Shown here in pieces: positions 7,833 through 34,707 of a stretch of DNA of 64,000 nucleotides. How positions within the stretch are numbered: position 1 is the first letter of the stretch; the number at the start of each line of letters is the position of its first letter. Source of the stretch: Xanthostigma xanthostigma (taxonomy: Eukaryota; Arthropoda; Insecta; Raphidioptera; Raphidiidae); NCBI GenBank assembly GCA_963575645.1, contig OY754466.1, forward strand, positions 16,780,001 to 16,844,000, in the 5' to 3' direction. The notes beneath the pieces are model-generated. The model was not told the origin of the DNA, did not search any database, and saw nothing but the letters and a program-made list of their open reading frames with translations. The position numbers and the translations under genes are program-made.

Positions 7833-8930
7833 CTATTTGCCAGATTTAACTTTAACAATTTTATTAACGGCGGTAACGACATCGACCGGTCGTGGCAAGG
7901 CAGCTAGTTCCAAACTTTTGGTATATGGCATCGGAGTATCGACTCCCGTTACTCGAATAACCGGGGCATCTAAATGGAAAAACGATTCACTTTCCATTAT
8001 TTGAGCACTTATTTCCGCCCCGATACCGCAGGTCGGCCAACCTTGTTCTACCGTTACTAAATGGTGTGTTTTTGCAACCGAAGCAGTGATTGTTTGTATA
8101 TCTAGCGGTCTCAACGACCGTAGATTTATAACTTCCGCTTCGATACCTTTCCCGGCAAGTTCCTTTGCCGCTTCGAGCGCCGTTTCAACGGCACGCGAAT
8201 GAGCCACTAACGTCACATGTTTCCCCGGCCTTTGAATTTTAGCTTTTCCGATGGGTATTACAAAATCTTTCGATAATGCTTCGTCAGACATTGGATACTG
8301 AACACCGTACAATATTTCATTTTCTAAGAACACAACCGGGTCTGGATCTCTAATGGCAGCTTTCAACAAGCCTCTCGCATCTTCCGAATCGTACGGTGAT
8401 ATTACTTTCAATCCGGGACAATGAGCATACCATGCACCGAAGCATTGTGAATGTTGTGCTGCGACGCCTGAAGCAGCTCCGTTAGGACCTCTAAATACTA
8501 TCGGGACGTTTACAGATCCGGCTGACATATAAAACGTCTTCGCAGCAGAATTTATTATATGATCTATAGCTTGCATAGCGAAATTAAACGTCATAAATTC
8601 ACAGATAGGTTTCAGACCTGCCATCGCTGCTCCTACGGCGATACCAGCAAAGCCTGCCTCCGTAATCGGAGTGTCAATAACACGTTTGTCTCCGTATTTT
8701 TTCCACAAACCTCGGGACACTTTATAAGCACCGTCGTACATTGCCACTTCTTCACCCAATAAGAAGACACGCTCGTCTTTTTCCATTTCTTCATCAATTG
8801 CAGAATTCAATGCATCTCTTACTGTCGTTGGTTTCGAACCCAGGGCACGAGAAACAGAAAATGCCCTTACATGTAACATTTTGGCAGCTGATGAAAACAT
8901 GCCTGGAGTGACTGTGATCGTTGCCATCAT
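7833..8930 (-). CDS. Pdhb: Pyruvate dehydrogenase E1 component subunit beta, mitochondrial
   Basis: The 365-residue product is the beta subunit of the thiamine-diphosphate-dependent E1 enzyme. As an alpha2-beta2 tetramer in the mitochondrial matrix, E1 decarboxylates pyruvate and passes the acetyl group to E2. Residues 1-35 are a basic, Ser/Ala-rich, acid-free stretch typical of a mitochondrial targeting peptide. The transketolase-like pyrimidine-binding part follows, with [20 protein letters not shown] near 58-77 and DTPITEAGF, whose Glu91 matches the conserved Glu that activates the cofactor. [17 protein letters not shown] lies in the middle, and the C-terminal domain includes TVEQGWP and DTPMPY. 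Length fits the family (human 359). Two ATGs stand in tandem at 8930 and 8927; I took the first. The whole CDS is one exon. A pyrimidine-rich AG just upstream (CTTTTTAG, about 8951-8958) could be the acceptor of a 5'UTR intron. An AATAAA on this strand lies at 7732-7737. Confidence 0.95.
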
Positions 8931-10178: not shown

Positions 10179-13100
10179 TTATTCATTTCTCTTGAGCAAA
10201 CCATCCACCCATTGTTTAAAGGCAATCAAATTCTGGCCGTTAGCTTCTTCGTAACCAGGAGCAACCAATTTGACTTTCGCATACCATCTTGCGATATTTT
10301 CGTACTTTTCAACGTCGATTCCCATCGCTTCGATAGTCGAAACGGTTGAAACTATGCTCAAATCGGCAATCGTCAAATCAGAACCTGCTACGAATTCCTC
10401 ATCTTTAAGGAATGAATCCAACGTCTCCAAAGCTTCTTCGATTTTCGTTAACTTCGTTGGATCATAGGACGCGCCTTCAAATAATACAGGGTACTAAAAT
10501 TCAAAAAACAATCTTTGAAATTTCTACTAATATTTCAAGTTCGTAACATTAAGAGTATTTTTCAAATTCTGTTTAAGTATAGTACTTATTTACTACATTG
10601 AGGCTTAAGTATACGTCTTTAATTTACAGTTCATTCGACTATTAATAAAGGGAAAAACTTACAAATATCAACGTTATTTCAAGATATAACTTCTTTCCCA
10701 TGACTAAATTATTAAATACTATGTAATGATTCATTAGAGAGAGATTAAGACAACAGAACATATGCTTCAGGGCCGTAAAGAGAAAATTCGAACATGTGGG
10801 GATTTTTTCAAACGAATAGAATTGTTTTAGAAAAAATAAACCAATTTGCGAAAACAATTGGCTGTCGGAGAATCTCCAATCTCGGAGTACTATGGTACTT
10901 TGCATAATACTTACATAATAATCACAAAATGTCTTATTTAAACTACCCATATCAAAATACAACCGTTGGTCAACGAGGGCACGCTTCTTTGGGTCTTTGG
11001 GGTACAAACTGTCATCCTTTCCGTATTGATCCGCAAGATAGCTCAAAATGGCACGACTGTAAAATTGACATCGTAAAAAGATTATATATTATTATAGCAA
11101 TGATTTTCAAGGTTCTAGAGCAGGTCTGGGCAAATGGCGGCCCACGGGCCGGATCCGGCCCGCAGCGCAATTTTGTCCGGCCCGCGAAGCATTTTATAAA
11201 TTTTAGAAAAATAGTAAAATGCGGAAATAGAATGTGGGGACCTTTTTTTTATCAGCCATACGGCCCGCGGTCAAATTTTCATCAACTATGTGGCCCGGCA
11301 ATCAAAAGATTTGCCCGCCCCTGTTCTAGAGGATATTTCATGAGGAAAAGAACTTCATATGAATTTTTATTTATGGTCGTTTATGGTGGTACAATTTGCC
11401 TATATAGTCTATACAACCAGGAAAACCAAATTAAAATCGGTGTAGCAGTTTTCAAATATACAGACATGGGCTCAGCGAGTACAACGCGATTGGATCCCCC
11501 TGCATTAAGAGACGGAGAAGAGAAATGTAATAAACTTTGAGAGAGGGAATCAAAATTGTCAGAGCGGTGTTTAATTTAGTTAAATTAATGATAGGTATAT
11601 TAATGCTGATAAATATCAATCATATTGTGCCTCCTTGAAATCAATCTGGTCATCGGCCATGTACAGAAATATAAATACCGACAGGGGAACTTCATTTTAT
11701 ATGATATAGGATAGGAAAAGGATTAAAGATTGATGTTTTTACAAAGTCATAAAAACACGACACATATTTTTATTTCGATTTAATTAAAAAATAAAAGTGT
11801 GATACAATTTAATAAATGATACGAAATTATAAATGAACAATTTTAATTAAAATCACATTTGATGAAACTGATAAAACATTTTTTTTAATAAGGTCATAAT
11901 ACTGTAATTTTTACGAAATATCGGTGTTTAAAATATATTTTATCTTATTATTAAATCTTGGAAATGATGTGAATCTTATCACATTTATTTGTATTCATTT
12001 TTTTGTCATTTTATCTACCAATTCTTTGAATGCAAGAACATTTTTGCCGTTGGCTTCTTCGTAACCGGGAGCAACTGATTTAACTTTAGCGTACCACCTT
12101 GCAACATTCTTGTATTTGCTAATATCGAATTTCATGACATCGAAAGTGGAAACAGTAGAAACTATGGTTAAATCGGCAATGGTCAATTTAGGACCTGCTA
12201 CGAATTCTTGATCTTTGAGGAAGATGTCGAGAAATTGGAAAGCTTCTTCGATTTTAGTCATTTTGGCTGGATCATAACTTGCACCTCCGAATATAACTGG
12301 GTACTGGAAGATGAAAGCACAATTTTAAAGTCAGGTTACCAATTGCCAGTGATATTTTGTCCTTGTAAACAATCGACTGGTACTTTAACCATACGTTTAC
12401 CACTAGAACGATAGAATCTTTCAATCTGAGAAACAGAGGTTTCTAATAGTTAGAGCTTCAGAATAATCGAGACTCGAGAGTATCTCCCTTATTGCAAGTC
12501 CCCACTTCTCAGATTCTAATTCAAAAACTCATAAAAGTGTCAATTGGAGTTGCAATTTATTATTGTAAATGTAAATTGGTGCTTGGCTGTATTTTTGTCA
12601 AAAACTTACATAATAATCGGCAAATCTTTGATACAGGGTGCCCATATCGAAATACATGCGTTGATCTACGAGGGCACGTTTCTTTGGATCTTTGGGGTAC
12701 AAACTGTCGTCCTTTCCGTATTGATCAGCAAGGTATCCCAAAATAGCACGGCTGTAAAAACAAAAACAAATATTAGTTATTAATAAATATCGACGGGTTT
12801 TCCCCAATCAAGGTTTTAAATATCAAAACTATATATCTAATCTACGCAAATGACTACAAAATAATTATTTTAGCGTGCCCATAACATGATTAATAAGTGC
12901 GGAATGGATATTTGTGTTACCTCTGAAATATTTTATATATTTCCCATCACCATTTTATAAACCATAGAAAAACCAAGACGAAAGCGTAGTTCTCAGTATT
13001 TACATTGCACTTGTTACAATCAGTTAGCTCTTTTTTCTGTTGTCGTACGTCTATAATCTACAATATCTGTCTATAGTTCTTTTTATTTTATTAAGGTGCG

Positions 13101-16100
13101 TTTGTTGATCAAGTTCAAGAGCGGTTCTTATTCAGATTCAAGTCTGGACTGTTAGAACAATTATATGGTAATTGTGGTGAGAATTACGCTTGCCAACTTC
13201 ATGACCATGACCATCGGTGACCTTATAAAATTTATTTAAGTTTTTGTATATAAACCGATAATTAATTTATAGATATATATTGAACAAACCGTAAGTTGAA
13301 AAACAGCCCGACACGTGTGATCCCATGGCAGGTTCAAAATAAACCTTTAAAGCATTACTTTTCAAACTCTTCATTTTCGAAGAGGATAATCGGTTCTAAG
13401 AGTACTAACTCTAGACGTCCATTAAAGAGTTCAAGAATCACGAGAATTTGACCAACAAACACGTTCTTTTAACAGTCCGAGGGGTTCTGTAGCAGGCGCG
13501 GTCCGAAGGGGGGGGTCACAGGGGACATGACCCCCCCCAAAATCTAAAGTCAAATTGAAAATTTTCAAAAATTTGCCAAATAATAAAAAAAAATTTTTAG
13601 CTACAATACAAAAAGACGATTTTTTTTATTAGTTTAGTGAGTGACCCCCCCCAAAATTTCAGGCTGCGACCGCGCCTGTTCTGTAGTGCCGACAAACACT
13701 ATGGAATGGGCAGAACCAGTTCAGAACTGCACTAACGAAACATATAGGATACGTTTTTGAGGCACTAAAGTCAGCCAATGTTATAAATTTTATCTGTAAT
13801 GCAAACCAACTGATGTAACTGAAGAATGTGTGCATACCATGCAAAAATTAACCATCATTCATTTCGTTCGCATCTAAAATGTATACAAGAATAAAATGTA
13901 GATCGGATATTGAATAATAATAATTATTGAGTATTGAGTGCCATGCGTCATAATTCTAACTTAGAAACTATAAACAAATTTGATAATAGGTTACTCAAAG
14001 ATTAATGTTGCGTCAGGATTAGAAAAATGCGTTAATAAAAAATTAGCAAATATAAACCATCTACATATAAAAATTGCGAACAAGAAAATGCATTTACAAG
14101 CTTCACTTGTTATTTATTTCCTAGGCATAATATCGAAATCCAAAATGACATGTTTTGATATTTCTTTCGAAGCCTCCCCAACCTTATTTCTGTCCCTGGG
14201 GAGAAAATTTAAAATCCCGCTTCTTTGAGTATTGCCATGCGTCCTATACTAAAATGTACAAAGTTTAAGCTTCCAAGGGGGTAGATAAAGAGGGTAATTC
14301 CCCCCTCAGGATCGTAATATTAAAAAAAATAAAATTTAAAATAATACGAATACCTGGCTAAAAAATAAAATTTAGAAATACTTTTTAAAGAGGAATTTGG
14401 AAAATTAATTTGAGAATTAATATTTTGCTTGACACCTTCCTTCGTACGTATTCTTGTGTGATACCAATAAAACTTAAAAAAAATATTGATTTTGTTTTGC
14501 TTTACCCGACCCCCCCCCCCCCCCCCCGGCCAGAAAAAAATATCTACGTCCTTGTCAGCTTCAAAGGTCATCAAGGATCCTTTTTCGGGAAATCTCCCCT
14601 ATTTCTGTTCCCGGGGAGAAAATCTAAAATTCGATTTGGCTGGGTTCTATCTCGTATTCTATACCATAAGTTCTATACTATAAATTTCAGCTTTCTAGGT
14701 CAACTAGGACCTTATGGAGGGCCTGAAAAGACAGACAGACATCCAGACAAACATTTGGAAATTATATATGCAGAATATAGATAGTTGTTAATTTTAATTT
14801 GCATAATTGTCAGAATAGAAGACAAGCCTTAGAAAACTGAATTATATACCTTTTGTATGATTTCTTCAATTATTATTATTTAAAATAACTGCATTTCAAA
14901 TGTTTTAGGTTTACAATTTTTGTACAGTTGAACTACAAAAATTTCATTACTTCTGTTTACAAACTACATAGTTTACATGCCTGTCTGCTGCCAAATGAAA
15001 TTTTTACGCCCAAAATCTGAATCTATTCATAAGCAAGAAACTTTGCAGTTAATTAGATTGTGCTCTTGTTAGTAAGTAATCTAAGTCGTTGACAAGCAAT
15101 TTTTAGTCGGCCGATTATTGCATGAGTGACTATACCAAGCATTCTGAACATGCGTTCCATCTGCAACTGATAAATCGGCCGACTAAATAGACTGTGAATC
15201 ATTTAGGGCAGTGTTTTTCAACCTTTTTCATGATGCGACCCCCCTGGTATGAAAAAATATTTCGCGACCCCTCTGGTATGAAAAAATATTTCGCGACCCC
15301 CCGACCCTCCGCTTTTTTATCATGTATGTATGTGTATGTTACAGTGTTACAAATATTCATTCCATACGACGTTTTTATACGTCTCCATAATTAGGATTCG
15401 GATATAAGTACATAATATAGTACGTAAAACACATTATTTTACAATTACATACCTACATCGAATACGTCGCCAATTGATAACTAACTAACGCAATTTACGC
15501 ACATAGGTATTAATAAAATTCTCTCGACCTCTGGCGACCCCCCTACAGAAGCTTCGCGACCCCCCAGGGGGTCGCGACCCACAGGTTGAAAAACACTGAT
15601 TTAGGGATTAACTGTCGATCGGCTGGCCTATGGAGAGTGGAGATAAGGAGAACGATCTCTTATGGGTGTTGTAGCCACAGTGGCGCAAGTGAAACAATGA
15701 GGTTAAAATTAACTTAGCCGTTGTAGACAAAATGAAGTGTGCTACTTGCCAAAGACAAAAGTCAGGGTCATAAATAGTTAAAAAAAGATGAAGTATCCGG
15801 AAATTAATTTAGTTAATATAACCTGCAAATTAATTTTGAAATCACATAAAACGTAACATAATTTTGAGAGTCCATTAAAATAATTTTATCATTATGAAAT
15901 TAATTCCGAAAAGTATTAATTTCATCAATATTTCAAAATTGCGAAAAAAAATATTAAAATAGGTATGTGACTTAAAATTATATAATTTTGATATTTAATT
16001 AGGTACAATGTACATATCTTCATTTTTTTTTTAATTGTTTACATTTATGGCCATTATGAATTTAACATTTCAAAATAGCTCCTTCAGAAGGCGGATGTTT

Positions 16101-19100
16101 GTCTTTCTTTGTTTAATTAATATTTTCCTGTTCCAACAAATTTATGGCGCTTTCTCATACAACAGCCATCTTAATTGAATGCTATTCGAGGGACATGTTT
16201 CTAACATTGAAATAGTTCTCCTTAACTCCACACTCCATGGCTTGATCGAATAATAACGCATTTAAAAATTGCCTGTCAGGTCTAAAAATACTATTTTTAG
16301 TATCAGATTTAATGTCTACCATGGCTCTAAGGGCTCAGCCATGCAAAACATCATGAATGCGAGTCACTCACCTTTCCCAAAGGGCGAAACCATTGTCATC
16401 GAGTGTGGGAACTGTGTGTTGAGGATTAATCTGTAAAAATAAAATTAACATAATTAGATATTATTGTCTGTAAATTCAATACGCGTGTACTAATTTCGGT
16501 AGTCTCGATCTCTCATTAACTACAACATAATATTGTTTACAAATAATGGAACATTAAGAATACATAAATAAATGATGCATTGAAATATAATTTAGAAAGT
16601 TTAGTTATAATTATGTTAGCTAGAATAAGTGAGGAAATGAAATAGAAAAACCTATTTGCCCGATTAAATTTCACGTAAAATTTAATTATGGACCCGCAAC
16701 CCGGCACAAGGGGGTGTCCAGTCGAACTTTAGTCAGGGACCCAGCCGTACGACTGCAAATTTTTAAGGACTATAAGACATACGGACTACTTTTAATAGCG
16801 TGAGGACCCGCTGTAAGCTGTAGACAAGAGGTCTATCTCAGACTATATGCTGGCTGTATGGCCCTCGATAGTCAAGGTCAATTTGAATGTGGAGAACCCC
16901 GGGGCGATGACAAATTTGATCCCTACAAAAAAAAACTACAAGGTCAAAATATTAAATTTTACCACTGCGAACCTAAGGCCTAGTTTATATGAGAGGCGCG
17001 CTCAACGCGCGTTGGCCCAACGCGCGTTGAACGCCTCTCATATAAACTAGGCCTAAATGTCTGAACGAAAGCGTGTTTAGTGTATTGAATAATTTTTAGG
17101 ATGCCTCTGTTATGTAAAAGACTTGGAACCATATATCTATTAATTAACTATATAATATGAATCATTGCCTATCTACTCAATGTGCGGTGAGTGAACGCAA
17201 CAAAGCGTATCGAAAATATATCTGCGTCTATTTCTTCGATGTAATTCCCTGATTTCTCCGATGATAGGATTGGTTGATGTACTTGTATTCAATCTGAATA
17301 AAGTATCTCTGTTTCAAAAACTTTGTCTTTTTCTATGACGTTAATATGGGCGTACCTAGCTTTTGCCCCAGGAGGGGGCAAATTCGAAATTTCTTAAGCC
17401 GGGTCCTCCGTGGATACGCCAGTGCTTACGACGTAAAAAAAGACAGAAGTATACGTTTGCACCCTAATAGTTCAATTGCGATTTTATTCCTATGCTCAGT
17501 ATAGAATAAAAGTATATGCTTGGAAAGGTATAATCCTTTCTGATAGCCTTCAAATCCGGCTCTTACCAGTTACCACCCTAATAACAAGCACTGAGGACAT
17601 AAAAGTGAATAAAGTCATCGATTCATTTTGCGCGGGAACACTTAATATCCAGCGACACCCAAATTTATATACTAGACTTCTTGTTTCAAAATTAAGACGA
17701 TCACCGACTGACAAAAAAAATTACAAGGTCATTATTGAATTGTTACATCGGTGTTCAATGGACAAAATTAATTTCCTCGTGACCGTAAAATGAGTGAGTA
17801 ATTTAACCTTGAAACTGGTGTCTAATGAAGCATGCACCAGCGGAATTCTGTTGAGTTAATGGTACATGCTACAATGGATAACCGGTTGTCTATAAATACA
17901 GCCAACATGCATTCCATTGTCGCAACTATCTGACCAAATTATTTAACTAACCAAACTGTACCTATTTTATGTGGTTAACTTTTGTTCACTAGTGGCGCCG
18001 TCAAAAGACTCAAAAATTAAAAAAAAATGCACTTGTCTGCGTTTGGGCCATATTATCATAATATGTATATTAGCTTACATATATGTAATATAACTTATAG
18101 CTGGGAAGCTAGAAGACAGTGACTGATAGGCACACAACAGTACTTATAGTGATAAACACAATCTTAAAAATAGCTCTTGGAGAACCGAAATTTTCGTCTA
18201 TCTCAAAGGTATATAATAGTAGTTTCGATACCATAAAGAGCGAGTTATTTGGAACTTTGTATCAGTTTTTTGCTGCAAGCCTATTATTGCAGACTAGGCG
18301 TTACCCGTGGCTTCGTACGCGATTGAGACGAAAAACGGATGCATTGCCATTATTTGGTATAGTACTCCTTTCTCGACGTAGACCCCCCAAATAAATTTCA
18401 AAATTGATGATATTTACGTGATCAACGTCCCGACAAACCAAGAAAATGATACCCGTGTTGTTTTTTAGACTATTTATCTTTTTTCACCCTCTGAACGGGT
18501 TGTTTTTAAGAAAGCATGAAACACGTAATTATTTATTTGTTGACAGGAGTAATCTTGCGCATTTTAGAATTGATACATCTATCTTATATGATTTCTCCAT
18601 GCAAATTTTGAACCCTCGTTACATCCTTTTAGGGGTTGAATTTCCAAAAATCTGTTCTTAGTGGGTGCCTACGTCATAATAACTATCTGTGTGCCAAATT
18701 TCAGCCCAATCCGTTCAATTGTTTGAGCTGTGCCTTAATTCTCCAAGCAAATTTCAAACCCACGTTATAGGTACACCCTTTTAGAGGTTGAATTTTCAAA
18801 AATCCGTTCTTAACGGATGCCTATGTCATAATGCCAAATTTCAGCCCAATTCATCCAGTGGTTTGAGCTGTGCGTTGATAGATCAATCAGTCACGGTTTC
18901 GTTTTATATATTTAGATAACAAAATGCACAAACATACCTAAAAAGGCTACACCAGAAAATATAATAACAATGAGACATTTTTTTGGCGTATGTATACTAA
19001 AAATAAAAAAGAACGATTTGCCAAAAAATAAAAGAATCTTCGATACGAGGAAAGGTTGCTTAAAAATAAGTGGTATTTACCAGATCAAATTGTCGTCAGA

Positions 19101-22100
19101 TAGAATTTGGACATTGTTAAATTCGTGGACTTACTTTATGAAAAAATAATGAAAATAATGAAAAAATACGTGTTACGACATAGAGGACAACTAAAAACAA
19201 TTTGAAAAACAAATTACATTTTGATTGAAATTTAAATTTGATACCAATGAAGTCACATCTGTTTTCCAGTAGGGACACCTCAGCGACGTCTCTTCGTTAA
19301 ATTAAAAGAGAAATTGTAGATTATTGACGCTCGACAGCTAAGGTTATCAGCCTTTATAATATTAATATTTTAATAATCTGTACATTCATTGTTTTTTTAA
19401 AAGCTAGTAAGTTGAAATTCGCCTTTATTTAAATCTTAACTAAAATAAGGCACAAATGGTTTAGTACCTGCGCAGTGTAAAAAAATAGGAAAAAAAAACA
19501 AAACCTCTCAAATCAACCACAAATCATAATATCTACCACGTCCGTAGTAATTTCTCAACGTTTAGTTTTATATCAATGGGGTTTTCCATTAAAACCACAA
19601 AAGGTAGAGTTGATTTGGTGATGAAGCATTTCTTTTTATATTTTCAACGAATTCTGTTTGATAAACTACCAGCATACTTTCTTTAATTCCACAGAAATTT
19701 GTCACTTAGCCAAACACACGCAGAGACATTAACTTTTAGGCACGTAAGGATTTACCCAGCTTTGACCGTTCGTCCTTTGCTCAGACTCTTGTTACAGTTG
19801 CATAATAAGGATATAGCATAAACCTTTCCAAATATTTTCTCTAATTATTCGTAAAAATCTCATGAAATTGATTACTCAGTTTCTGAGTTCTGAGACATAA
19901 GACAAACAGATTATAAATTTTTATATTATATGTATACTAGCGGTCCGTCCCGGTTTCACCCGGTGCGATAGATATAATTCTGCAAAATGTCTTTCGTTGG
20001 CGGCCCGGCGTCTGAACTAATAGCTTTGAGCAAAATCTACTAAATTTGCTTCTGAATTAATAGCTTTGAGTAAATTCTATCTAATGTCGTTACATATGTG
20101 ACTTTTTTTTGAGAAAACACCATAATTTTGTACAAAATATTTAATAAAAACTATCCTATAGCGTAAGTTGCACCAAACAAAATACGTTTACAAAATTTCA
20201 TTAAAAGTAATTTAGGAGATTAGCGCGGCCAAAATTGTGACACGAGAATTTAGTATATATAGATAAGGTATAATTAAATAATGACTTTGCATTTTTACGT
20301 GTTTTAATTAATTAAATATATAGGAATAACTTACTAAATGATTATCAACAAAATTAATCCCAATATTTAATTCATTTTACAAACCCAGGAAATTGTAAGG
20401 TACGTACCTTACGTAATATATTTTTAAACGGTTAACCTTCAAATGTGTAATTATCAGTAAATGGTGATTACTTCTACGTATCATTTAGGATAGAGGTCCT
20501 CAAACTGTATCCTGGCAAATATTTTTGTCTAGTTTGCGGACATTTTATTCAAATCAATTTAGACAAATACATAGTTGAAGATTTGACTGTATTACGGCTC
20601 ACAATAAGTAATATAATATATGACTGTTGGGTGTTTTTAAGACGACACTCATAATCCGCATTGTCGAATCTTTGGTCGGTGGCAAAATATCTGCCAATAA
20701 AATATTTTGAAAAAATATTAAAATGCTCACTATTAGGGTATGCACCCGGGTGTACCCGGTTCTGAAATACCCGGGTATATCCGGGTATTTCAATAAGTCT
20801 GTGGAACCGGTTCTGAGCGATGGAACCGGGTTGGCCCGGTTCTGATAAGATTATTATAATTTTGTATTAATTGCTAATTTAAATTACGCGTGTGTTCTGT
20901 TTTAAGTGATTTAGTATCTATTATTTAAGTAGGTACTATTATTTCCTAATTTTCTGTCATCTGCAAACCAAAAAAATTCAAACCAAATTATTTAAATTGT
21001 TTCAAGAGTTAGTTCTTGTAGATCATTTAATAATAGTTCCAAGAGTAGGTTTTTGTTGATTATTGAATAAGAGTTCCAAGAGTAAGTTTTTGTTGATTAT
21101 TTAATAATAGTTTCAAAAGTTAGTTTTTGTTAATTATATAATCATTTAATATCAAATTGTATTTTATTCATTATCTCTTTATAATTCCTACGTAACCAAA
21201 CTCTCCATTATCATTTATACAAAAAAATATATAAAAAATACGATTTTTTCGCTTGGAACCGGGTAGAACCGGGCGAACCGGTTCCGACTATCCCTAGAAC
21301 CGGGTGTGCAAAATATAGAACCGGACCCGGTTCTGCATGCCCTACTCACTATACAAGGGTCACCAACTAAAGAGGTAAAGTTTGTAAATTTGGATGTAGA
21401 AGCTAATCTCCGAAAATAATCATCCGATTTCAAAATTGTATTCACCAATATTTAAAATGTACCTTCAGGATGGACACAGGCTATATAATATCACGTAACA
21501 ATAAAAGCACTTTTTCCATTTTTATTTAGGTATTTCAAAAATTACTATTTTTGAATTTAAAAAAAAATATATATATTTCCTGTTCCCATTTCGTGATAAA
21601 ACTGACAAAAAAACGGCTCTCACTACGAAAATTTTCTTAAAACATTTTTTTGCAATTGGACTATTACTGATCGAGTTTTCAATCACACGGCTGGAGGAGA
21701 TTTTTTTTAATTGTGTTACTTTTCATTTTTTTAATAAAAATTAGTAAAAAATGGCTCTAAAGTATTCTCAATAAAATACTACCCAATTCTTAAATAACAA
21801 ACTAAGAAAATAAAAAAAATATAGAAGAAAGTATTGTTTTCAACTCTTCAGTCTACACACGGATGTTCTCCATTAAGATTCGAGCTAATAATGCCTACAA
21901 TAAATAAAATCTAAGTTGGCCCACTTGATATACATCCTTTGAAAAGTTTGGGAGCTACTGATTTCTAATCGGTATACATGATACACCGTTTTCACGCGAT
22001 GACTACAAAAAACATATACAAAACTCGTTTGAAACAGAAAAAAGACCTCCGCACTAAACAATGGAAAACGCGCAACTTACCTACTATTATTAATATGTCA

Positions 22101-25100
22101 ATAAAACCGTTTCATCACCGGTTTATTAATTATCATCTCTGAAACGAGTTTTTAAATCTTGACGCAAAGACGAAACAAGATATCTTATGATTTGTATAGC
22201 TTAGCTGTAAAAATCCTAACCAATATATAAACACGTTTCATTTCAATCAATTGGAGCATTTGTTTTTTCAAGTTACACGAAACCAAAATCAAACTAATCA
22301 TCCGTTAACTTTTAACTAATGGTTTTAGCAGCAAAAAGTTTCGTCTCAATTGGTTCAGCCGTTTTAAATTATGCGAAAACAAACAAACAATGAAACAAAA
22401 TATATTGGCATCTAACATCTGGTGTCAAAATTTGAACTTGTTCAATGGAGTATATTTCTAAAACTTTGGGGGATATTATTTTTTCAAAAATTATCTTAAA
22501 AAATTCCTACATTCCAGAGTAAATTCGGTCTAATGAAAATTCATATTTTTGATTTTTACCCATTTCATGTGATTAATTGCTCTCACCGTACTGAAATTTT
22601 TGTAATCGGTTGAAAAGAGTTCGGATCAATAGACCCTGGCGGAATTAAAATCTAAATAATTATAAATAGAGAGATTGTTGATAGACGCTCAACAACTGAG
22701 GTCATTCTAAATAATTATATGCATGTATATCAAGGTAACCTTAACGCAATTGCAATATTTATTTCACGGCATTCTGTTCCATTGGCCGCAGCAATATTTG
22801 GACAATGCCAGTTGTTTTTCACACCCGATCTGTCGCAGTTTCAATACAAACGAAAAATCGTGTCACTGAAGCAAGGTTGATTTCATAATTAACAATTTAC
22901 AATATCAGTCGATTTTTCCATTTTACCAATCGGCACACCTCTTCGATGCATGTATCAACTTACTTACCGCAAGAGAAATGTTAAACTCGTTCTTCAAGTT
23001 TACTTGCGTGCATATAAAATCTTTTTTTTAATAGATAGAAGGCGTATAACAATTGCTATGCCATGAGTCATGATCGTGATTTCGAACTTGCTACTTACAA
23101 ATGTTTTCCTTTATGTTAAGGAATGTAGTACAATAGATTCTTGTAGACCCGAGTGTATTGAGTTTTTTCCTAATAAAATATTAATGTCAAAATACTAACT
23201 AATATTTGAAATGGCATCCGTTTTTGAACAAATGCAATATTAAAATGTCCATAACACACTGTGTAAAAGAAAAGGAGAGCCGGTCCACGTGCGCGATGTA
23301 TTTGGCAAAATCGAATATATATACAGTGTTTATTTCTGCTTTTTTTATGCACAAAAAAACTATTTGCGCGAATTCTTTAAGACAGGTTTCGAACCGATCT
23401 GATGTAAATTGAGCGAATTATAAGCGAAAACTTTTTTGTTTTCAATTTACTCCCCTCTGGGACCAAAATTCAAAAATCAGACTGCGTTAGGATCTGTCGC
23501 ATGCCCTATATTATAAGTGTGCCAATTTCCAACCTTCTATATCTACGGACAGACATACAATAGGTAATTATATAGGTATGTAGATTTTTCTTTACGTTTT
23601 TTTCTTACGATTTTTTTTCTAGCCCTTTCCATTCATATCTATAACGTCCCATAAGGAACTTTGTTCCAAAAAAAAAAGACACTATAAATAAAAGAGGCTG
23701 TACAAAAGAGCCTGTATCAACAATCGCCGGACTGAATAACATTTTACTTTATACAATACGGCTGAACTAAATATTAGCCGGTTTACAAACCGACAATTCG
23801 AAATAAATCACTGGATTGCCGAATTCAACTGTTTATCGTGCTAGTTTGCCATGTTTTCATCGATGTAAAATGTGTGTTAAATACGAAAATTTTGTAATGC
23901 GAATAAACCCTAAGTTAACCCACATGACAGGAACATAAAAAAGAATCTTTTATCGTTATTATTTCTGTAATAATTTATTTCTCGAATAACGCAATAATTA
24001 AACAAATAATGTACATTTAACCGTGTCGTTTTATTACAAATAAACTATAGCCAACATGCAAAAGTAATTACAGTAATTATTATACCAAGGCTGTCTCATA
24101 GAAAGTGTAATTTGTATGTTTCAAAATATTTTAATGAAACTTATGATATTTCCGTTAACTTCGTGTGTTTAATTTTTAAATAACACTGCTAATAACCACA
24201 GTTGTCGAGCGTCTATAATCTTCTATTAAAAAACACATACAAGTAAAATGAAGTTCTTCACTATGATATTTAGTTAAATATATTCAATCTTTAAAATTTA
24301 GAAGTTGTTGATTAATTACCGATCGTGAGTCATTAAAGGTTGAAAAACTCATCGATTAGACACACCTACTTATAGGTAGGTGAACGATAATTTTGATAAA
24401 TAAACAAATGAAGTCCCCAGTGACGATTATTTCTCTGAAAAAGGTAACTCCACTAACTCTTATCAAAATAATTATTTTTTCAATTATCGTTTCAATTTGA
24501 ATGCGTGTGATAAACATATCTTGTTTTATATCTACATACTGTAAACCGCAATGTGTTTTATAATTATCACCAGTTATTAGTGTTTACATAATAAAAACAG
24601 TCTTGGCAACTAAAAAAGTGGATATCCGGCTTGTTGTGTTTTTAATTATTCAAAATTACCTTTTTAAAATTTAATAGTAATTGTCAATAATGAAATAATG
24701 TAATTATTTAAATTTTGATCAATGTTTTTTATTCTTTAAGAAAATAATCACCAAATTAAATTTTACACCCAACTTTTTTTTAAGAGCACCAATTACTAGG
24801 ATTACCTGTACTTGGATGTATTTCATATTTTAGCTTATTACTTTTGACGTGATAACGTCTTATAAATTGATGAATCACCAATCTTATAAATTGATAAAAC
24901 ACCGGCTGCATGCACGAAAAAGTGTAACGTTCCTAACGTAACGTTCCGCCTGACCCTGTGCGTGCTTTTCTCGAAAACGGCCCTAACGATTTGGATGAAA
25001 TTTACTGAAAAGGGATTTTGGGGGGCAAAAAATCGTTTTAGCTAGGTCTCATCTCTCGAAAAAATCGTTTTCTTACAAATTTTATCATTATAAAAATCAA

Positions 25101-28100
25101 TTTTTTGACGTATGAAAATACTTAAATATTGTAAGTAGGTTTTGGAATTTTATATAAACAGTGAAACAATTGTTTTATAAATATTATGACAGCTAATCTT
25201 TGAGACATAAAATAAATACGAAAGAAAGAAAGTTAAAAAAAACAATTATATTATATGGTGAGTAATTTAAATAAATAAAATTAACCTAAATTTGAAGCGA
25301 AAGATGCAATATCATAGATTCGAATTATTATAATTATTATATAAATTTAGGTTATGTATTACGGAATACGTTATCACGTAAAACTATCGTCCGTAAACCG
25401 ACTTTACAGACAACCAATTTTTTTTATCATACTTTTACTAATTCCCAAATTAGGACAGGTGCGCCTTCTAATGGAGACGCCATACCCCATTTCAATTATT
25501 TCCTATATTTAGAAAAAGGCAAAATAATATTTTGTGACGTCTAAGCTACATCGATTAACTGAAAAAAGCTAAATTTTTCATTTAGAGAAGGTATATTAAC
25601 AAAACATATTTTATCGATTTACCGGAAAAGTTTCTATTAAAAGATTATAATAACGGAAATATTTAACGAAAAAATTGCCGAATCATTCTGTCATCATAAT
25701 TTATTCATGGTGCTGCTTATTCATAAGTGAAGACATTCAACGATACTGTATCAATTTCAAATCGATTTAAAAAAAAGACTGCAATTCTACATGTATATTT
25801 GACGTTTGTAGTTGTGTGTATGGTCGCGGTTATTTCAAGAACGACTGGGCCGATTTGAAAAAGTATTCCATTGCTTAAAAGTCTACTTCTTCTCTAGGAC
25901 ACAGCCTTCATATTAATACGCTACGATAAAATGGCGGGCAGTGAGCTAAATTGTAAAACAAGTGATTGTAATAACTACCGAACCGATTTCGATGAAACTT
26001 TTACCATATTGCTTAGAATGACAAAGAGTCTTTGGCTAATCGCATAATCCGGACGACCCTGAATAAAATAAAATTCAATGACGCTAAAAAGTGTTAAATA
26101 AAAATGAATTTTAAAAAATCGAATAGACTTTAAAAATTATTTTCTTCGTTTTACAAATCACCTTCCCTACCTAGGTTAAATTAGATATCAATATAAATAA
26201 CGTACTCTATTACTCTACACGAAGGCGTGGAAAAGTATATACCTATGTGAAACATAACTTGCTCGTAAACGCAATTTACCTTCCGAATCTAGCACAGATC
26301 TGTATGCAATGTTGATAATAAGACACAACAGGCACCGGCCTAGGACATCAAAGAGGGGGCACCAAAAAACGAGAATACTTTTTCCTGAAGTTAGAACTAG
26401 TTGGGTTATTAGATTTCTGATTAAAATGATTTGTTTGCACAGAACATAGCATTTATGATCACTTCAATAAACATATACGTGACGTTTCTTCTGGATCAAA
26501 CATCATGAAAAATAGTGAAATTATAGAAAGTGAAACGTATATATATATTAAAAGAAGATGATATTAATAAAAGTCGAGATCCTGCGCTATGAATCAAAAC
26601 AACAAAAAGAGAAAAACTAGGACACCGTTCACTATAAAAAACTAGGACGCCAAAAAGTTTAATATGCCTGTATATGGGTTTTGTTTTAAACTTATATAGG
26701 TTGCATGGTATTCCTTATTAATATAGGGAAGGTGATTGTAAACCTAAGGGAAAAATTGTTTAGAGTGAAAAATTTTCGATATAATGCATATATAGTTTGA
26801 CAATTGACAGAAAACCATTAGTCCAATATACGGTTCTCACAATATATCTAATATTATTATGTTGACACCTCAAGGCCTCAAAGAAAGGAGGCGAACACAA
26901 TTACTGTATTCGATAGTACCTGTCTCCTTTCTTGGCGACCTTAATATTATAATGCTAAAACCTGTAAACTCCACATTTTTCTTGAATATTTCAATAAAGT
27001 TATACTAAACTGAGTGTCGCGGTCTATTAAAAAACTATTTTTACTTCTGGAATCTGGACGGTCTGGTAAAAGTCACTTTATGATGTGAAACATTTAATGG
27101 CACGTTTGAAGTGAAAAAACGTGCAACTGGCGCCACACTGTAATGCTATCTCGTTATTTTTTTAGTTACTATAATATTTCGTTAGATGACAGCGCGTAAC
27201 GCTTGCTGTGTGTATGCGTTGCATTATAACATGGTCTCTGCAGTGTTTGTTATGTAGTTTGGCGTGGGTAAATAATAATTACTGTGTGTTGTTATATATT
27301 AGTTGTAAGTTACATGACAGGGCGAAGAGTTTAGTTACTAGAATTTCGCTTAAATTTATGTTTCACAACTGCCAGGCGTCCGATGACGGCTGACATTTTT
27401 TTAAATAATGAATTTGAATCGCTTGCTAATTCTCAGATTAAATTCTAGGAACTATACGGGCTTGTAATAGAGTAACCATGCCAACACCATAGCTACATGC
27501 TCGGCTGTTCTCAAGCTTTCGTAACTAGTTGAAAAATACTAACTAATTATGTTAAATTATGCTTATATTATTGGCACTTGGAAATACTGACTGATCCATT
27601 GATTAAACTGTACTTAAAATTTGTTTAGAACTGTAAGCATGTTAAATACAGAAATATTTCCACTTAAATCAATCGATTACATGGATAATTTATTGACTTA
27701 CAAACAAATGATATTAATTGCAGTTAAAAAGTTTCAAGAAATATACTTATATCTAGTACCTGCACTTTTTATAAATTACTAAAAATAGCAGAAAAAACAA
27801 GTTTTATAAATTTATCAGTTGCATTATCTATTTACTTAACTATATATAATTGTTTTTATTCAAGCTATCCAAATAATAAATATTTGTGTTGAAATGATAA
27901 GATGACACTTTTTTTTCGAAAACAACACTGCTGAATTTTTGCATGAATATTTGTTATGATTCATAACAAAAATTAAGATCTTATTGAAATAAAATTACAT
28001 TTTGTGAAGAATGCAGCTATTTTAACGGAAAATCCTACATTGATTTGCATTTTCATATCTCTGATAATGACATTTAGAATTCTTGAGGATTTTCCAATAA

Positions 28101-30186
28101 CTTGATACGTCATTTGGTTATTATACAGAATATATTGAAAAAGGGAGATATTAGGTCTGTTTCAGACTGTCTCAGAACTGTAACAGAACCGTCACCGTCT
28201 TGCGCAGTAGCTAAAACGAAACTGTTTATATTGAGCAACTGCGCAAGACAGTCTTGCGCAGTAGCAAAACTGTGACGGTTCTGCTACCGTTTGGAAACAG
28301 CTTGGAACAGACCTATAACTTTGCACGTTATATACGTCCTGTTGCTTGCAAATGAATATTTTTGAATTTTTTTTCGTATCGATATTCGATAGAATATACT
28401 TATAGTATTACTCTCCTAACAATATGAATGTGATAAAAGAAGCCAAGTTCTCGTCTACCAGTTTATTCGACTATCTAAAAAAAAATTAAAACCAAGACGA
28501 CGCCAAGTTTCACAATCTAATGTGGTCGATCACAAGTGAGTGGTCAGAAACTGATACCATTACCCTAAACGCAGTATATTATAAAGAAAACAAATGAGCT
28601 TAAATATCGATTACTAAGCGTCAGTTACTATTCAACTAATGTATCAACGATTCAAAACACAACACTTTTGTTAATTTAAACAATAATGCGTCACGAAACA
28701 CGAAACCCCAATTCGTTATATCAAAATATTTTTTACAACTTCGTCGATATTTTGAACTGGTAGTAGTAAAGTAGTCGTAACATGAAACTGTCAAAAGCTA
28801 TGCGATTAAAAACATGATCACACAACATTAGGCAATCGTTCCCGATATCTTAACAAAACTGTTACAACTAATTTATCAATGGTATAGTAGAATATTTTAA
28901 AAAACGTAAATACCAAATTTTTATGCAGCCCGTTAGTGAATGATCCATAAATTAAAACTTTCCAGGGAAAAGACAGTTGCATATACGTTGTATTAAATAA
29001 AACTATAACAATATTATTTACTAATTGAATTATCGTCAACACAATTCAATATCTAAGCTAAACTCTGACAAATACAATGTAAGAAACCGCGAAACGATAT
29101 ACGATGTTTCAACACTATATAAACGCTGATGACCTCAGCTGTTGAGCGTCTATAATCTACAGTCTTGAGTCTATCTATCTGTTTCAACCAGTCTTAAAGT
29201 AGTTGATTTTAACAATCTGAATTTCTTGACAATTTTAGGCGCAAATAGCGTTGACTGAGGCGCTTATATACAGTCGATTAATATTATATTAATGCGTTTC
29301 CACATATTATAATAATGTAGCGTACCAATAGGGTGGCAGAGCGGGTAAAATGCCACGGGCCCCCGACCCGAAAGGCTCCCAATCTGAAAAGACCTCCGGC
29401 CCGAGAGGGCCATGAGTAGAGCAGGATACTAACATTTATTATTACAACATTTAGTAAAATTTACCACGGGCCTCAAACGGCTGATCGCATTTCTTACATT
29501 TACAAGGGTGTCAGACTGATTTTTCTAAAAAACCATTTATAAAATTTAGGATGTGAGAGCGGGCCAGACTCTAAATTAAAAACTAAAACACATACGAAAT
29601 TAAAATCTTTATTTAATTTAAATCAATTGTCATATAAAGAATAAAAGGGTGAGCTTGAGGATCCAGCAATTTTAAAAAAAGGTAGTGGCATCGAATGCCG
29701 TTTAAAATCCTCACTGGATAGCTTTCTGGCCGTATTGAGATGGCTTTAGGACCGGATGCGGCCCGCAGACCGTATCTTTGACATAACTATTTTAAATATC
29801 TTAGCATCCGACAATCCGCTGAGCCGATTTCGGTCAGACAATTGTTAAACATTGAAAATATATTTTAAAAAAAAAACGCATATCTGTATGTTGTCTCGTT
29901 TTTATGATATCAAAGAAGAAACATTTTACTCACAAGGTATAAAAACGTTAAGAATGAATTCCGAACAAAAAATTTGAACTTAACCTAAAACCTGAATTTT
30001 TTTTGAGTAAGAATCCGCATCCAAGTATCTTCCTATTTATCTTACCTTAACAAATTCTGGTTTGAGATGTTCCCCGGCCATCAGATCGGTAAGTTTGAGA
30101 TTGAGTTCGACTCCAACAGCCTTGGCGCCCAACAAAACGGAGCGGCAAGGGGCACTTCCAGGGACGTAGTAAAAATCGATCGGCAT
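10179..30186 (-). CDS. GstD: Delta-class glutathione S-transferase, isoform B (alternative 3' exons)
   Basis: This isoform uses the same first two coding exons (30046-30186 and 16372-16430) and then 10915-11056 and 10179-10493, giving 218 residues. Exon 3B has exactly the length (142 nt) and phase of exon 3A and encodes a close homologue ([20 protein letters not shown] is shared). Exon 4B encodes a C-terminus parallel to 4A, with [14 protein letters not shown] and [18 protein letters not shown]. No separate first or second coding exon was found between 4A and 3B, so B needs the shared 5' exons; all phases allow this. Delta GST genes of Anopheles (the GSTD1/adgst1AS1 locus) are known to splice one 5' part to alternative 3' exons, and the layout here is the same kind. 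Alternatively, B is a tandem duplicate that lost its 5' exons. An AATAAA overlaps the stop codon (10178-10183). A 203-bp hAT-type element sits just upstream of exon 3B. Confidence 0.8.
11121..11323. mobile_element. hAT-type MITE in GST intron, 8-bp TSD
   Basis: The 203-bp element starts CAGGTCTGGGCAAATGG and ends TTTGCCCGCCCCTG. It is flanked by an exact 8-bp duplication, TTCTAGAG (11113-11120 and 11324-11331). It is G+C-rich inside. It lies 65 bases upstream of GST exon 3B. Confidence 0.8.
11995..30186 (-). CDS. GstD: Delta-class glutathione S-transferase, isoform A (spliced)
   Basis: Coding exons are 30046-30186, 16372-16430, 12610-12751 and 11995-12303, joining in frame to 216 residues. 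The enzyme conjugates glutathione to electrophiles in the cytosol and is a common detoxification and insecticide-metabolising family. The N-terminal thioredoxin fold begins [16 protein letters not shown]; Ser11 fits the catalytic Ser of Delta GSTs. Glutathione-site residues are visible as His40, His52, cis-Pro55 and Glu66-Ser67-Arg68. The helical C-terminal domain, from residue 67 on, comes wholly from exons 3A and 4A and carries the family motif [14 protein letters not shown]. Junctions are canonical GT-AG with phases 0, 2 and 0. An AG acceptor lies 5 nt before the ATG (30192-30193), so an untranslated exon is expected upstream. An AATAAA follows the stop at 11984-11989. Intron 1 spans about 13.6 kb and holds several transposons. 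Confidence 0.88.
13493..13678. mobile_element. hAT-type MITE in GST intron, 8-bp TSD
   Basis: The 186-bp element starts CAGGCGCGGTC and ends GACCGCGCCTG, with exact 8-bp duplications TTCTGTAG (13485-13492 and 13679-13686). Runs of G and C lie inside each end. It sits between GST exons 2 and 3A. Confidence 0.8.
14512..14527 (+). repeat. Poly-C tract
   Basis: A run of about 16 C in otherwise AT-rich intron DNA. Length is likely to vary between individuals or by sequencing error. Confidence 0.8.
15209..15598. mobile_element. hAT-type MITE in GST intron, 8-bp TSD
   Basis: The 390-bp element starts CAGTGTTTTTCAACC and ends GGTTGAAAAACACTG, flanked by exact 8-bp duplications ATTTAGGG (15201-15208 and 15599-15606). 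A short direct repeat (GGTATGAAAAAATATTTCGC, twice) lies near the left end. Confidence 0.85.
16372..16430 (-). other. GST shared coding exon 2
   Basis: A 59-nt exon bounded by TTTTTACAG and AG|GTGAGT. It codes for [19 protein letters not shown] (residues 48-66) plus two bases of the Ser67 codon. It completes the glutathione-binding site (His52, cis-Pro55, Glu66). Its donor is the branch point for choosing cassette A or B; both exon 3 copies start with the single base that completes a Ser codon (C in 3A, T in 3B). Confidence 0.88.
16976..17054. repeat. Near-perfect 79-bp palindrome
   Basis: AGGCCTAGTTTATATGAGAG runs inward to GCGCGTTGGCCCAACGCGC and back out to the reverse complement of the start. 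It is G+C-rich, has CpG-rich arms and would form a long hairpin. No target duplication was evident. Confidence 0.75.
17146..17523 (-). repeat. Dispersed repeat family A, copy 2 (inverted)
   Basis: Reverse-complement copy of the repeats at 3655 and 57028, in GST intron 1. It retains the middle part (CATCGAAGAAATAG and the GGGTACGCCC-like segment) that copy 1 has lost. Confidence 0.6.
18294..18916 (-). mobile_element. Helitron-like non-autonomous element
   Basis: On the minus strand it begins TCTAAATATATAAAACG and ends GGGTAACGCCTAG, inserted between A and T as Helitrons do. About 120 bp near the start of the element (plus 18745-18870) is a direct duplication of neighbouring sequence (18590-18730). 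No coding sequence. Confidence 0.65.
19937..20263 (-). mobile_element. Helitron-like non-autonomous element
   Basis: Minus strand: starts TCTATATATACTAAATTCTC and ends GACGGACCGCTAG, lying between host A and T. The opening TCTCGTGTCACAATTTTGG is a well-known type of insect Helitron start. 327 bp, non-coding, in GST intron 1. Confidence 0.7.
20734..21344. mobile_element. hAT-type element with internal 37-bp tandem repeats
   Basis: Ends are TAGGGTATGCACCCGGGT and ACCCGGTTCTGCATGCCCTA, flanked by exact 8-bp duplications CTCACTAT (20726-20733 and 21345-21352). Multiple ACCCGGTTC motifs crowd both ends. Near 21001-21147 about four units of 37 bp (TTCCAAGAGTAAGTTTTTGT and so on) are repeated. Non-coding. 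Confidence 0.8.
21353..24840. other. GST intron 1, middle part, no gene seen
   Basis: AT-rich intronic DNA with two copies of the short dispersed motif and no inverted-repeat element that I could bound. No additional GST cassette was found. Confidence 0.4.
24841..25421. mobile_element. Dispersed element family B, copy 1
   Basis: Begins TTTTGACGTGATAACGTC and shares both its outer parts with 48298-48961, while the middle differs. An inverted counterpart, TACGTTATCACGTAAAA, lies near the right end. No coding sequence; superfamily not determined. Confidence 0.5.
26872..26942. repeat. Imperfect hairpin
   Basis: AAGGCCTCAAAGAAAGGAG is repeated inverted as CTCCTTTCTTGGCGACCTT, with a loop of about 33 bases. 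Probably a small foldback; a hairpin RNA cannot be excluded. Confidence 0.4.
28152..28315. mobile_element. Small inverted-repeat MITE
   Basis: Starts TAGGTCTGTTTCAGACTG and ends CTTGGAACAGACCTA; inner parts (CTTGCGCAGTAGC) are also inverted repeats. About 164 bp, non-coding. Confidence 0.55.
29124..29162 (+). repeat. Dispersed short motif (one of seven copies)
   Basis: GACCTCAGCTGTTGAGCGTC followed by TATAATCTAC. Related copies lie at 13037-13062 (+), 19314-19353 (-), 22671-22706 (-), 24189-24226 (+), 54121-54155 (+) and 62283-62322 (+). No element around them is shared as far as I can see. Confidence 0.6.
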
Positions 30187-31877: not shown

Positions 31878-32861
31878 TTAAAAAAATTTCTACCAAATTT
31901 TGAGCTTCTAAGTTCAAACCGTTCAGGAGTAAGAGGCCTGTGTCAGACAGGACAGACAGGTGGACGGACGGACAATGTTTCACCACTGGGCTCCGTTTAT
32001 AACCGTTTTGATATGAAATCTGGTAAAACAACTCTAAATGTTAAAAATTAAGCAGAAAAGTCGGCAGTTTTAAATTGGACTTCAATGGGAATACTTTTCT
32101 AAAAAAATAATAGCGAAAATGAAAAAATATAGAATTTTAACGTAAGTCTGTCCTATGACGCGTCATATCTCGATTTCTCAAGAAATAAGTGATATACTGA
32201 AAAAAGTGAAATTAATTTTATTTTTGACACTTAGCTGGTAAACTAAAATAAACCTACAAAATCAAAATAATTTCTTAATTCAATAGTCGAATCAAATTCT
32301 CAAAAAAAATTGTCACTTTTTGGCTAGCCGGCAAATTATTCAATAAAATATTACGCTGCTCAGTAATTTCAGTTACTGAGTAGACAGAAAAAATACAAAA
32401 TTTAAAAATAATTTCACTTTTTTTAACTTAGTTAACATATAAATTATTCTAATTAAAAAAAAAAATAATAATTCAGTGACTTCAATGACTGAATAAACAC
32501 CCAAAAAAGGAAGAAGAAAAAAAATTATGTTTTACCTACCTGTTTAGATTTGAAATATCACAAAAAAAGCACTGAAAACACAAGTAAGCTCGTCAAACAC
32601 ACAAGTCGTACTGAAGCCGGTTAGCAAAGCCGATTCTTATTTATTTGTTGTTATGTACAAATAGTTACTGTGTGTTGTTAAGGGGAGATGACGTCACAAT
32701 GTTCAACAAAACTACACTGTAACTTCGATAAACTGTACCAGTACAAGGTCATCGATAAATGAGCGTCTGTTACAAAAGGGACCTTTTATTAACATTGATT
32801 GGAAAATAAATCAGTTTATTTTTTAATTAATTCTATTTAATATGTTTTTAATTTTCTTTAA

Positions 32862-33277
32862 GAGTATTCGTCCCTGCAAATACCCCCTGCACCCTTCATC
32901 TCAAATCTTTTCCCCTCGCCTAAAAACGGTTCGCGCTCTCCCGACGCTATTTTTAAAGCTAGAGGGTTCTGGTAAACGCCAAATGAAAGACAAAGAATCA
33001 GACTACAGATCCTTCAGGCGAATTTTTTGAAAAACAGTTTCGCCTACGTGTGAAATATTACGTAACTTATTTTTTTCAAAAGGTTGTAAGTTTTTTCAGG
33101 ATTTTTTTTCAAAAAATTCGTCTGAAGGATCTGTAGTCTGATTCTTTGTCTTTCATTTGGCGTTTACCAGAACCCTCTAGCTTTAAAAATAGCGTCGGGA
33201 GAGCGCGAACCGTTTTTAGGCGAGGGGAAAAGATTTCAGATGAAGGGTGCAGGGGGTATTTGTAGGGACGAATACTC
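32862..33277. mobile_element. TTAA-flanked foldback MITE
   Basis: Arms of about 170 bp (32862-33031 and 33107-33277) are near-identical inverted copies starting GAGTATTCGTCCCTGCAAAT. TTAA lies directly outside each end (32858-32861 and 33278-33281), as in piggyBac-type insertions. A degraded partial arm recurs at about 33840-33960. The matching short open frames on the two strands are simply the two arms. Confidence 0.65.
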
Positions 33278-34707
33278 TTAAGAGCATCGAATATCTGCAA
33301 ATACCCTCTGCACTAATCAGTTTAAATCCTTCCTTTAACCTGGGTCAGTCCTTATCAAAACTACCGATAGTTGGAATCGACTCCTTCTGATTTGGATAAA
33401 ATTTGATCAGAAGTTTAACGAAATTTTACCAACGGAAAAAATTTTAAAAAATGTTTTCAAAGGTAATGCGAAATTCGTTTGTTTTTTGATTATCTCGAAA
33501 ACTATTATAGTTACAAAAATTGAACTTGATTCATTTTAAAGAGGATATTTAGAGCTACAAAAAATATGTTTATAAAAATATTTTATAAAACCAAAAAATT
33601 GCTGTTTGGAAATTTTCAAAATTAAATAAATCAAAAACGTATATTTATTTTAGCTCAAATTTTTTTGCATACTATCGGTATCTGGTTTAAAAGACTCCGC
33701 AATTTTCAGTGGTGTTTCTTATCGAAGATATGAATTTTTGAATTTCGAAATCGTACAGGCGAATTTATTGAAAAAAAGCGTAGAAAAATATTTTTTTTAA
33801 ATATAAAAATTACGTATTATTTCACACGTAACCAAAACTTTTTTCAAAAAATTCATCTATTAGGCGTTTACCCGAACACTTAGCTTTAAAGACAGCATCG
33901 GGAGAGCATTAACTGTTTTTAGGCAAGGGGAAAGGAATAAGATGAAGTATACAGGTCAGGGATGGATGGGTTCAACTACTCCAGCCCGGGAAAGTAAGAT
34001 TCCGGTTCCGTCAACATGAGTAGTATTTTTTATACAAAGAGAGCCAGCGATTCTAGCGGCAAAATCAGCCTCATGTGTAGCGGCCTTAAGTCAACAGCTA
34101 GGGGCACTAGTGGCAATATTTTACACTCACAGTGTAAGAAAAAGTGCATAAACCTTTTGGGTGGATAACTACACCAATTTCAATTTTTTGAAGGTTAGTC
34201 TAAATATTTGTCTTTAGTATTTAACCATACGGATATAACAGATAACTCCATTTTGTTAGTAGGCTACACATACAGGCGGCTCTCTATAATAATTTAATTA
34301 ACCGATAATTATTTCTTCTTTTTTCAGGTGAGGCTTTTTTCGTCTTTCCATTCTAAAGTGAAAACTATATACGGCTGACGTAAGTACTGGACGGAATTAT
34401 TAACAATTAATTTTAAAATCGAAAAAACGCAAAAAAATAAAAAATATGAATTATATTCGGTCGTTATGTGACATAAATTAATGATATACATTTTAAGTTA
34501 AATAAAACGCGACGTTCTAATTTATTTTGCAATAACTGTTTCGCACAATACAGTGGCTTCGTCAGACAAAGATCATCTAATGACGCAACTGTGTTGTGTA
34601 ATACAACAATGTTATGTATGTAATAATGTTCGCAAAGACTTCCAAAGAATATAGAAGATGAAGATAAGGCGAACAATCTCTTATGGGTGTTAAACTGACA
34701 AAGTGAT

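Follow-up and report, generated by a model that had tools for sequence, protein, structure and literature searches.

A delta-class GST gene of Xanthostigma xanthostigma with shared 5' exons and candidate alternative two-exon 3' cassettes

Architecture and surroundings of the GST gene

The window analysed here is a stretch of 64,000 nucleotides (C3:16780001-16844000) of the Xanthostigma xanthostigma assembly, which comprises 623,323,696 bases in 28 contigs; its G+C content is 33%, and the count of N is zero. The minus strand of the window carries a GST gene of the delta class (Table 1), whose six coding exons comprise two 5' exons followed by two pairs of 3' exons, cassette A (exons 3A and 4A) and cassette B (exons 3B and 4B). 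The initial annotation of this DNA, read from the letters, had placed all six exons exactly to the base, and its account of exons 3A and 3B as equal in length, phase and boundary logic holds, both being 142 nt long, bounded by GT-AG and in phase. All splice junctions of the gene are canonical GT-AG with compatible phases, the donors being AAG/gtaaga (exon 1), AAG/gtgagt (exon 2) and TAT/gtaagt (exons 3A and 3B). Intron 1 spans 13,615 nt, and exon 2 is separated by 3,620 nt from exon 3A and by 5,315 nt from exon 3B; the introns within the cassettes measure 306 nt (3A-4A) and 421 nt (3B-4B), and the gap between exons 4A and 3B is 938 nt.

Table 1. Positions of the features described in the text (window coordinates unless a contig is named)
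Feature	Position	Strand	Remarks
Exon 1, first coding exon, common to both products	30186-30046	minus	141 nt, 47 aa, has Ser11, end phase 0
Exon 2, common to both products	16430-16372	minus	59 nt (19 aa + 2 nt), end phase 2
Exon 3A, cassette A	12751-12610	minus	142 nt, Tyr107, end phase 0
Exon 4A, terminal coding exon of cassette A	12303-11995	minus	309 nt including stop
Exon 3B, cassette B	11056-10915	minus	142 nt, Asn107, end phase 0
Exon 4B, terminal coding exon of cassette B	10493-10179	minus	315 nt including stop
Candidate polyadenylation region of cassette A	11715-11774	minus	signal match: AATAAA 221 nt past stop, then T/G-rich stretch
Putative noncoding first exon	32614-32540	minus	read by eye: initiator-like TCAGT as start (32614), CAG followed by a GT donor (32540)
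Inverted repeat	32858-33034 / 33105-33281		177 nt, 98% complementary, 70-nt loop
Intronless frame	7833-8930	minus	365 aa, transketolase pyrimidine-binding and C-terminal domains
Open frame	41349-41723	minus	124 aa, signal-like start then QVTFTRDWPAGKR; Pfam Adipokin_hormo 2.8e-7
Tandem array	52811-53264		157-nt unit, 2.9 copies, 99% match; overlaps a second array of 37-nt units at 72%
Exon-sized frame	61913-62317	minus	Mito_morph_reg 3.9e-32; mitochondrial morphology gene
Other Delta/Epsilon-like GST loci inspected	C3:9.868, C3:9.877, C4:18.30, C6:12.93 (two), C8:24.84 Mb

Exons 1 and 2 joined to cassette A encode 216 amino acids and joined to cassette B 218, with no internal stop in either product. 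A mixed 3A-4B product, which the phases had been said to permit, is indeed open as well (218 aa, zero internal stops), and the 3B-4A join is in frame and open, yet contrary to the linear order of the exons. Since the length of exon 3 is a multiple of three plus one, inclusion of 3A and 3B together would shift the frame, so that their productive use is predicted to be mutually exclusive. Residues 1-66 are common to both products, and the cassette-coded part starts at residue 67. The predicted exchange takes in the whole substrate-binding domain, as the annotation had proposed, but is not limited to that domain, because it also takes the end of the thioredoxin-like domain together with Arg68.

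At the 3' end, an additional AATAAA lies 6 nt past the stop of cassette A; past exon 4B the nearest poly(A) signals are ATTAAA at 138 nt and AATAAA at 422 nt, and a strong T/G-rich stretch is absent. At the 5' end, a good acceptor (tgtttcag) is found 5 nt ahead of the exon 1 ATG. The putative start of the gene lies some 250 nt downstream of the inverted repeat, which is perhaps a fold-back mobile element. The intronless frame on the same strand 1.25 kb downstream of cassette B is presumably like pyruvate dehydrogenase E1 beta, and the 124-aa frame is one that we take to be an adipokinetic hormone/corazonin-related peptide precursor. The tandem arrays and the mitochondrial morphology gene lie further along the window.

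Both products match Pfam GST_N (1.8e-12 for A, 1.1e-12 for B) and GST_C (1e-8 and 3.1e-8, respectively). The best solved match to both is 9nxu (4.2e-106 for A, 2.5e-98 for B), nearly over full length, and the closest solved chains, 9nxu and 9nxw followed by 3wyw and others, carry delta-class names as deposited; 3wyw itself we take to be of the delta class. We also take the products to resemble beetle GSTs. S11, H52, P55, E66, S67 and R68, presumably the catalytic serine and the glutathione-site residues, are present in A, in B and in the four solved relatives aligned in full, Arg68 being encoded identically in both cassettes. As to the substrate pocket, the available part of a review lists Tyr107, Tyr115, Phe119 and Phe206 as H-site residues of BgGSTD1 (PMC9576527). 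This numbering carries over unchanged, and product A has all four residues, while B has Asn at position 107 and keeps the other three. Position 107 is Tyr in all six solved delta GSTs compared (9nxu, 9nxw, 3wyw, 7rhp, 8z3b and 3vk9), a subset, picked by printed alignments, of 21 distinct sequences at E up to 1e-60. Residue 120 is Glu in B versus Gly in A. The substrate pocket of B is thus likely to be altered relative to that of A, and from the changes of Tyr107 to Asn and Gly120 to Glu we infer that the two products differ in substrate range.

5' exons available to cassette B

The annotation had recognized a single exon 1 and a single exon 2, with no further copies between the cassettes, and tblastn of the window agrees with it: among the matches listed there is no second exon 1 or exon 2, the best other matches having E values of 0.60 (exon 1) and 0.85 (exon 2). 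The genome-wide check for another exon 1 that it had called for gave the same picture in the 623-Mb assembly, where exon 1 has one match at 100% (its own) and five others at 36-49%, so that no second close exon 1 was found and the next-best identity is 49%. The full protein has at least 30 matches in the genome at E up to 10 and cassette B at least 16 at E up to 1, both counts being lower bounds; outside the described exons these matches reach at most 68% identity and cover parts of exons 2 and 3 at other GST loci. Additional cassettes were found neither in the window nor, at close identity, elsewhere in the genome, among the matches listed. A search of the genome with the Pfam GST_N profile returned two matches and missed the gene in the window, as its exons split the domain. 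In viral contigs no relative was found (13 pattern matches, 0 confirmed). One telomere-repeat pattern had no match either, in a scan that may pass over simple repeats.

Five 10-kb stretches containing six other Delta/Epsilon-like GST loci (Table 1) were inspected as whole loci, and weaker matches at C3:47.8, C4:17.9, C4:50.9, C6:3.7, C10:25.8 and C11:14.5 Mb lay outside this inspection. A private exon 1 is present in all six, that of the C4 locus being a 30% match. Judging from the breaks between tblastn matches, the two C3 loci share both early intron positions with the gene in the window, and one further split falls in their last part. On this comparison the other loci show duplication of the whole gene with private 5' exons, and cassette B is the exception, since each of the six owns an exon 1 and cassette B has none.

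These results bear on the possibility that cassette B has its own promoter and an unrecognised, non-GST 5' exon and gives rise to an N-terminally different or truncated protein. The 938 nt between exons 4A and 3B offer enough room for a promoter, and dissimilar exons would escape a similarity search. Nevertheless, neither this gap nor the rest of the window holds a GST-like exon 1 or 2 among the matches listed, and the acceptor phase of exon 3B matches exon 2 exactly. Without exons 1 and 2, a product of cassette B would moreover be deprived of Ser11 and of the greater part of the glutathione site, and still the cassette keeps Arg68 and a constrained GST core; a separate 5' end of this kind is therefore regarded as very improbable. 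Attachment of cassette B to exons 1 and 2 by trans-splicing of separate transcripts would fit the frame, and the resulting mRNA joins would appear identical. It seems nonetheless unnecessary, as cassette B lies downstream on the same strand in what is plausibly one transcription unit, for which cis-splicing would suffice, and we consider its occurrence here improbable in the extreme.

Divergence of the cassettes and constraint on cassette B

Of the 144 nt compared in exon 3, cassettes A and B share 118, and of the 306 nt in exon 4 they share 222; third codon positions account for 17 of the 26 and 46 of the 84 differences, respectively. Their proteins share 112 of 150 cassette residues (75%). 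On these figures the likeness is far beyond chance. When the cassette regions are compared, strong alignment is confined to the exons and a few splice-site bases (159 nt at 83% and 293 nt at 74%); the next-best match between the regions is 22 nt long with E 0.038, and the introns are otherwise unalignable beyond short weak matches. The repeat finder gave spacings between the copies of 1,695 nt for exon 3 and 1,810 nt for exon 4. Such a pattern is expected of an old tandem duplication whose introns have diverged past recognition, and the cassettes appear to have this origin. In a tree built from the cassette parts (8 rows), A and B are each other's closest neighbours in path length (0.37), and no supported fork unites them.

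The first 36 codons of exons 3A and 3B are near-identical as protein. The NG86 estimates of dS are similar in the two exons (1.39 in exon 3 and 1.30 in exon 4, with 0.94 over codons 1-36), while YN00 gives a dS of 0.37 in exon 3 versus 1.35 in exon 4, and because of this latter difference partial gene conversion between exons 3A and 3B may have taken place.

Substitution estimates point to constraint on the protein. For the whole cassette A versus B, NG86 yields dN 0.164 and dS 1.326 and YN00 dN 0.186 and dS 0.861; the corresponding values are 0.077 and 1.390 (NG86) and 0.123 and 0.367 (YN00) for exon 3, and 0.210 and 1.301 (NG86) and 0.230 and 1.349 (YN00) for exon 4. Over the cassette the dN/dS ratio accordingly lies between 0.12 and 0.22, and over single exons between 0.06 and 0.34, the upper value, 0.34 for exon 3 alone by YN00, indicating weaker constraint than under NG86. 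Neutral decay was simulated in 2,000 runs per setting, with cassette A as a stand-in for the ancestor and no indels. An open frame persisted in 27% of the simulated copies at 0.05 substitutions per site, in 1.3% at 0.20, in 1 of 2,000 (0.05%) at 0.40 and in 0 of 2,000 at 0.65, a distance at which the mean identity left was 26% versus the 75% observed. Taken together, the low dN/dS, the intact frame and the loss of the frame under simulated neutrality suggest that cassette B is no relic and was probably maintained as a protein through most of its history.

The two cassettes have not evolved evenly. The end branch of B is 0.31 versus 0.061 for A, and the unique changes of B and A number 15 and 6 with 9nxu as the outgroup, 15 and 4 with 9nxw, and 9 and 8 with 3wyw; B is thus faster-evolving than A against two of the three outgroups. 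Combined with the loss of Tyr107, this faster evolution could reflect reduced function. The same two observations would fit cassette B as the remnant of a full tandem duplicate that lately lost its own exons 1 and 2 and ceased to be expressed, since a very recent loss leaves the frame intact, as in more than a quarter of the copies simulated at 0.05 substitutions per site. Such a remnant is improbable in our view: given the low dN/dS, only a small fraction of the branch could have been neutral, the splice sites, phases and stop of cassette B are all intact, and no trace of private exons is left in the window among the matches listed. All three alternatives, a B-specific 5' end, recent loss and trans-splicing, are less likely than alternative use of the cassettes.

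Proposed use of the cassettes and comparison with known systems

It is highly probable that the window contains one delta GST gene in which shared exons 1 and 2 are alternatively spliced to one of two terminal two-exon cassettes. This explanation, which the initial annotation had put forward as shared 5' exons with alternative 3' pairs, accounts best for the data given the anatomy of the gene, the purifying selection on B and a genome search in which no other close 5' exons turned up for that cassette. A single promoter, perhaps with the noncoding first exon listed in Table 1, would drive a transcript through both cassettes, and the two coding 5' exons, which cover most of the glutathione-binding domain, would serve them both, each cassette having a separate stop and, probably, a separate poly(A) site. 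Joining of the exon 2 donor to the 3A acceptor with cleavage after 4A would produce form A, while polymerase read-through, skipping of 3A and 4A, and joining of the same donor to the 3B acceptor would produce form B. The choice between 3A and 3B may be governed by competition of acceptors and poly(A) sites, and the exon 2-3A and exon 2-3B junctions are both presumably used. Looping-out of cassette A was considered and rejected. No inverted repeat beyond chance was found to flank it, and the sole flanking pair listed (11581-11600/13250-13269, 20 nt, 85%) had its 17 of 20 matches equalled by 12 of 30 dinucleotide shuffles.

Use of both junctions would mean that mosquito GSTD1 is not alone in its arrangement, and that insects can broaden the substrate range of a detoxification enzyme by duplicating the 3' part of a gene alone. 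Gene counts in insect GST surveys could then miss isoforms, and the two forms would offer a natural domain-swap pair for probing the contribution of the C-terminal part. A bolder proposal, which we hold to be possible rather than probable, is that a delta GST outside mosquitoes has built its own two-exon 3'-cassette switch, which would yield a pair of enzymes and perhaps, as a third, a 3A-4B hybrid; B would have an altered pocket (Asn107), A would be the more conservative form, and one glutathione site would serve them.

The products of mosquito GSTD1 share 5' exons and swap 3' exons, and a gene of the GSTD1 type is one in which a single set of 5' coding exons is shared by several intact 3' cassettes that follow it on the same strand. 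The gene in the window has this layout. In mosquitoes there are about four cassettes, each a single exon, and the split comes after approximately residue 45, whereas the window gene has two cassettes of two exons each, and its second shared exon moves the split to residue 67.

The solved chains 9nxu and 9nxw show 2 differences in the first 102 residues and 37 in the last 114, a distribution that 5' exons shared or homogenised at their locus would produce and that may have arisen in this way. One of the differences, at residue 24, falls in the region of exon 1, and the chains therefore do not derive from one identical exon 1.

For Anopheles gambiae, the available text of one study describes two alternative transcripts of GSTD1 and names GSTD1-6 as its splice variant (PMC3634070, citing Ranson 1998), and a figure legend in another marks alternative splice variants of the gene (PMC1761136). 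In the accessible part of a study on Aedes, one gene is listed with three proteins, AAEL001061-PA, -PB and -PC (PMC9698486). Like GSTD1 of Anopheles and Aedes, the window gene encodes a delta GST and is predicted to give more than one product by splicing. Drosophila GSTD11, GSTO2, GSTT3 and GSTZ2 have splice forms and hence also more than one spliced product, but the available part of the report does not describe a duplicated two-exon 3' delta cassette (PMC4195677). The arrangement is not general, as GST transcripts without alternative splicing are reported in the accessible portion of a full-length transcriptome study of Phyllotreta striolata (PMC7990184). Spliced beetle chemoreceptors, according to the accessible text on R. 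dominica, combine exclusive N-terminal exons with shared C-terminal exons (PMC8956072), which is the reverse of the layout of the GST gene described here. The portions available of PMC7314810, PMC8956072 and PMC9523569 mention no comparable GST, and those of PMC8727960, PMC9540044, PMC4654499 and PMC1847502 add nothing on delta GST splicing. The literature search, with most subscription journals outside its scope, returned no GST named as having a two-exon 3' cassette. The resemblance to Anopheles GSTD1 drawn in the initial annotation is fair as a working analogy, with the difference that the cassettes here consist of two exons: splicing of the mosquito GSTD1 kind is already known, and here it would operate on two-exon cassettes.
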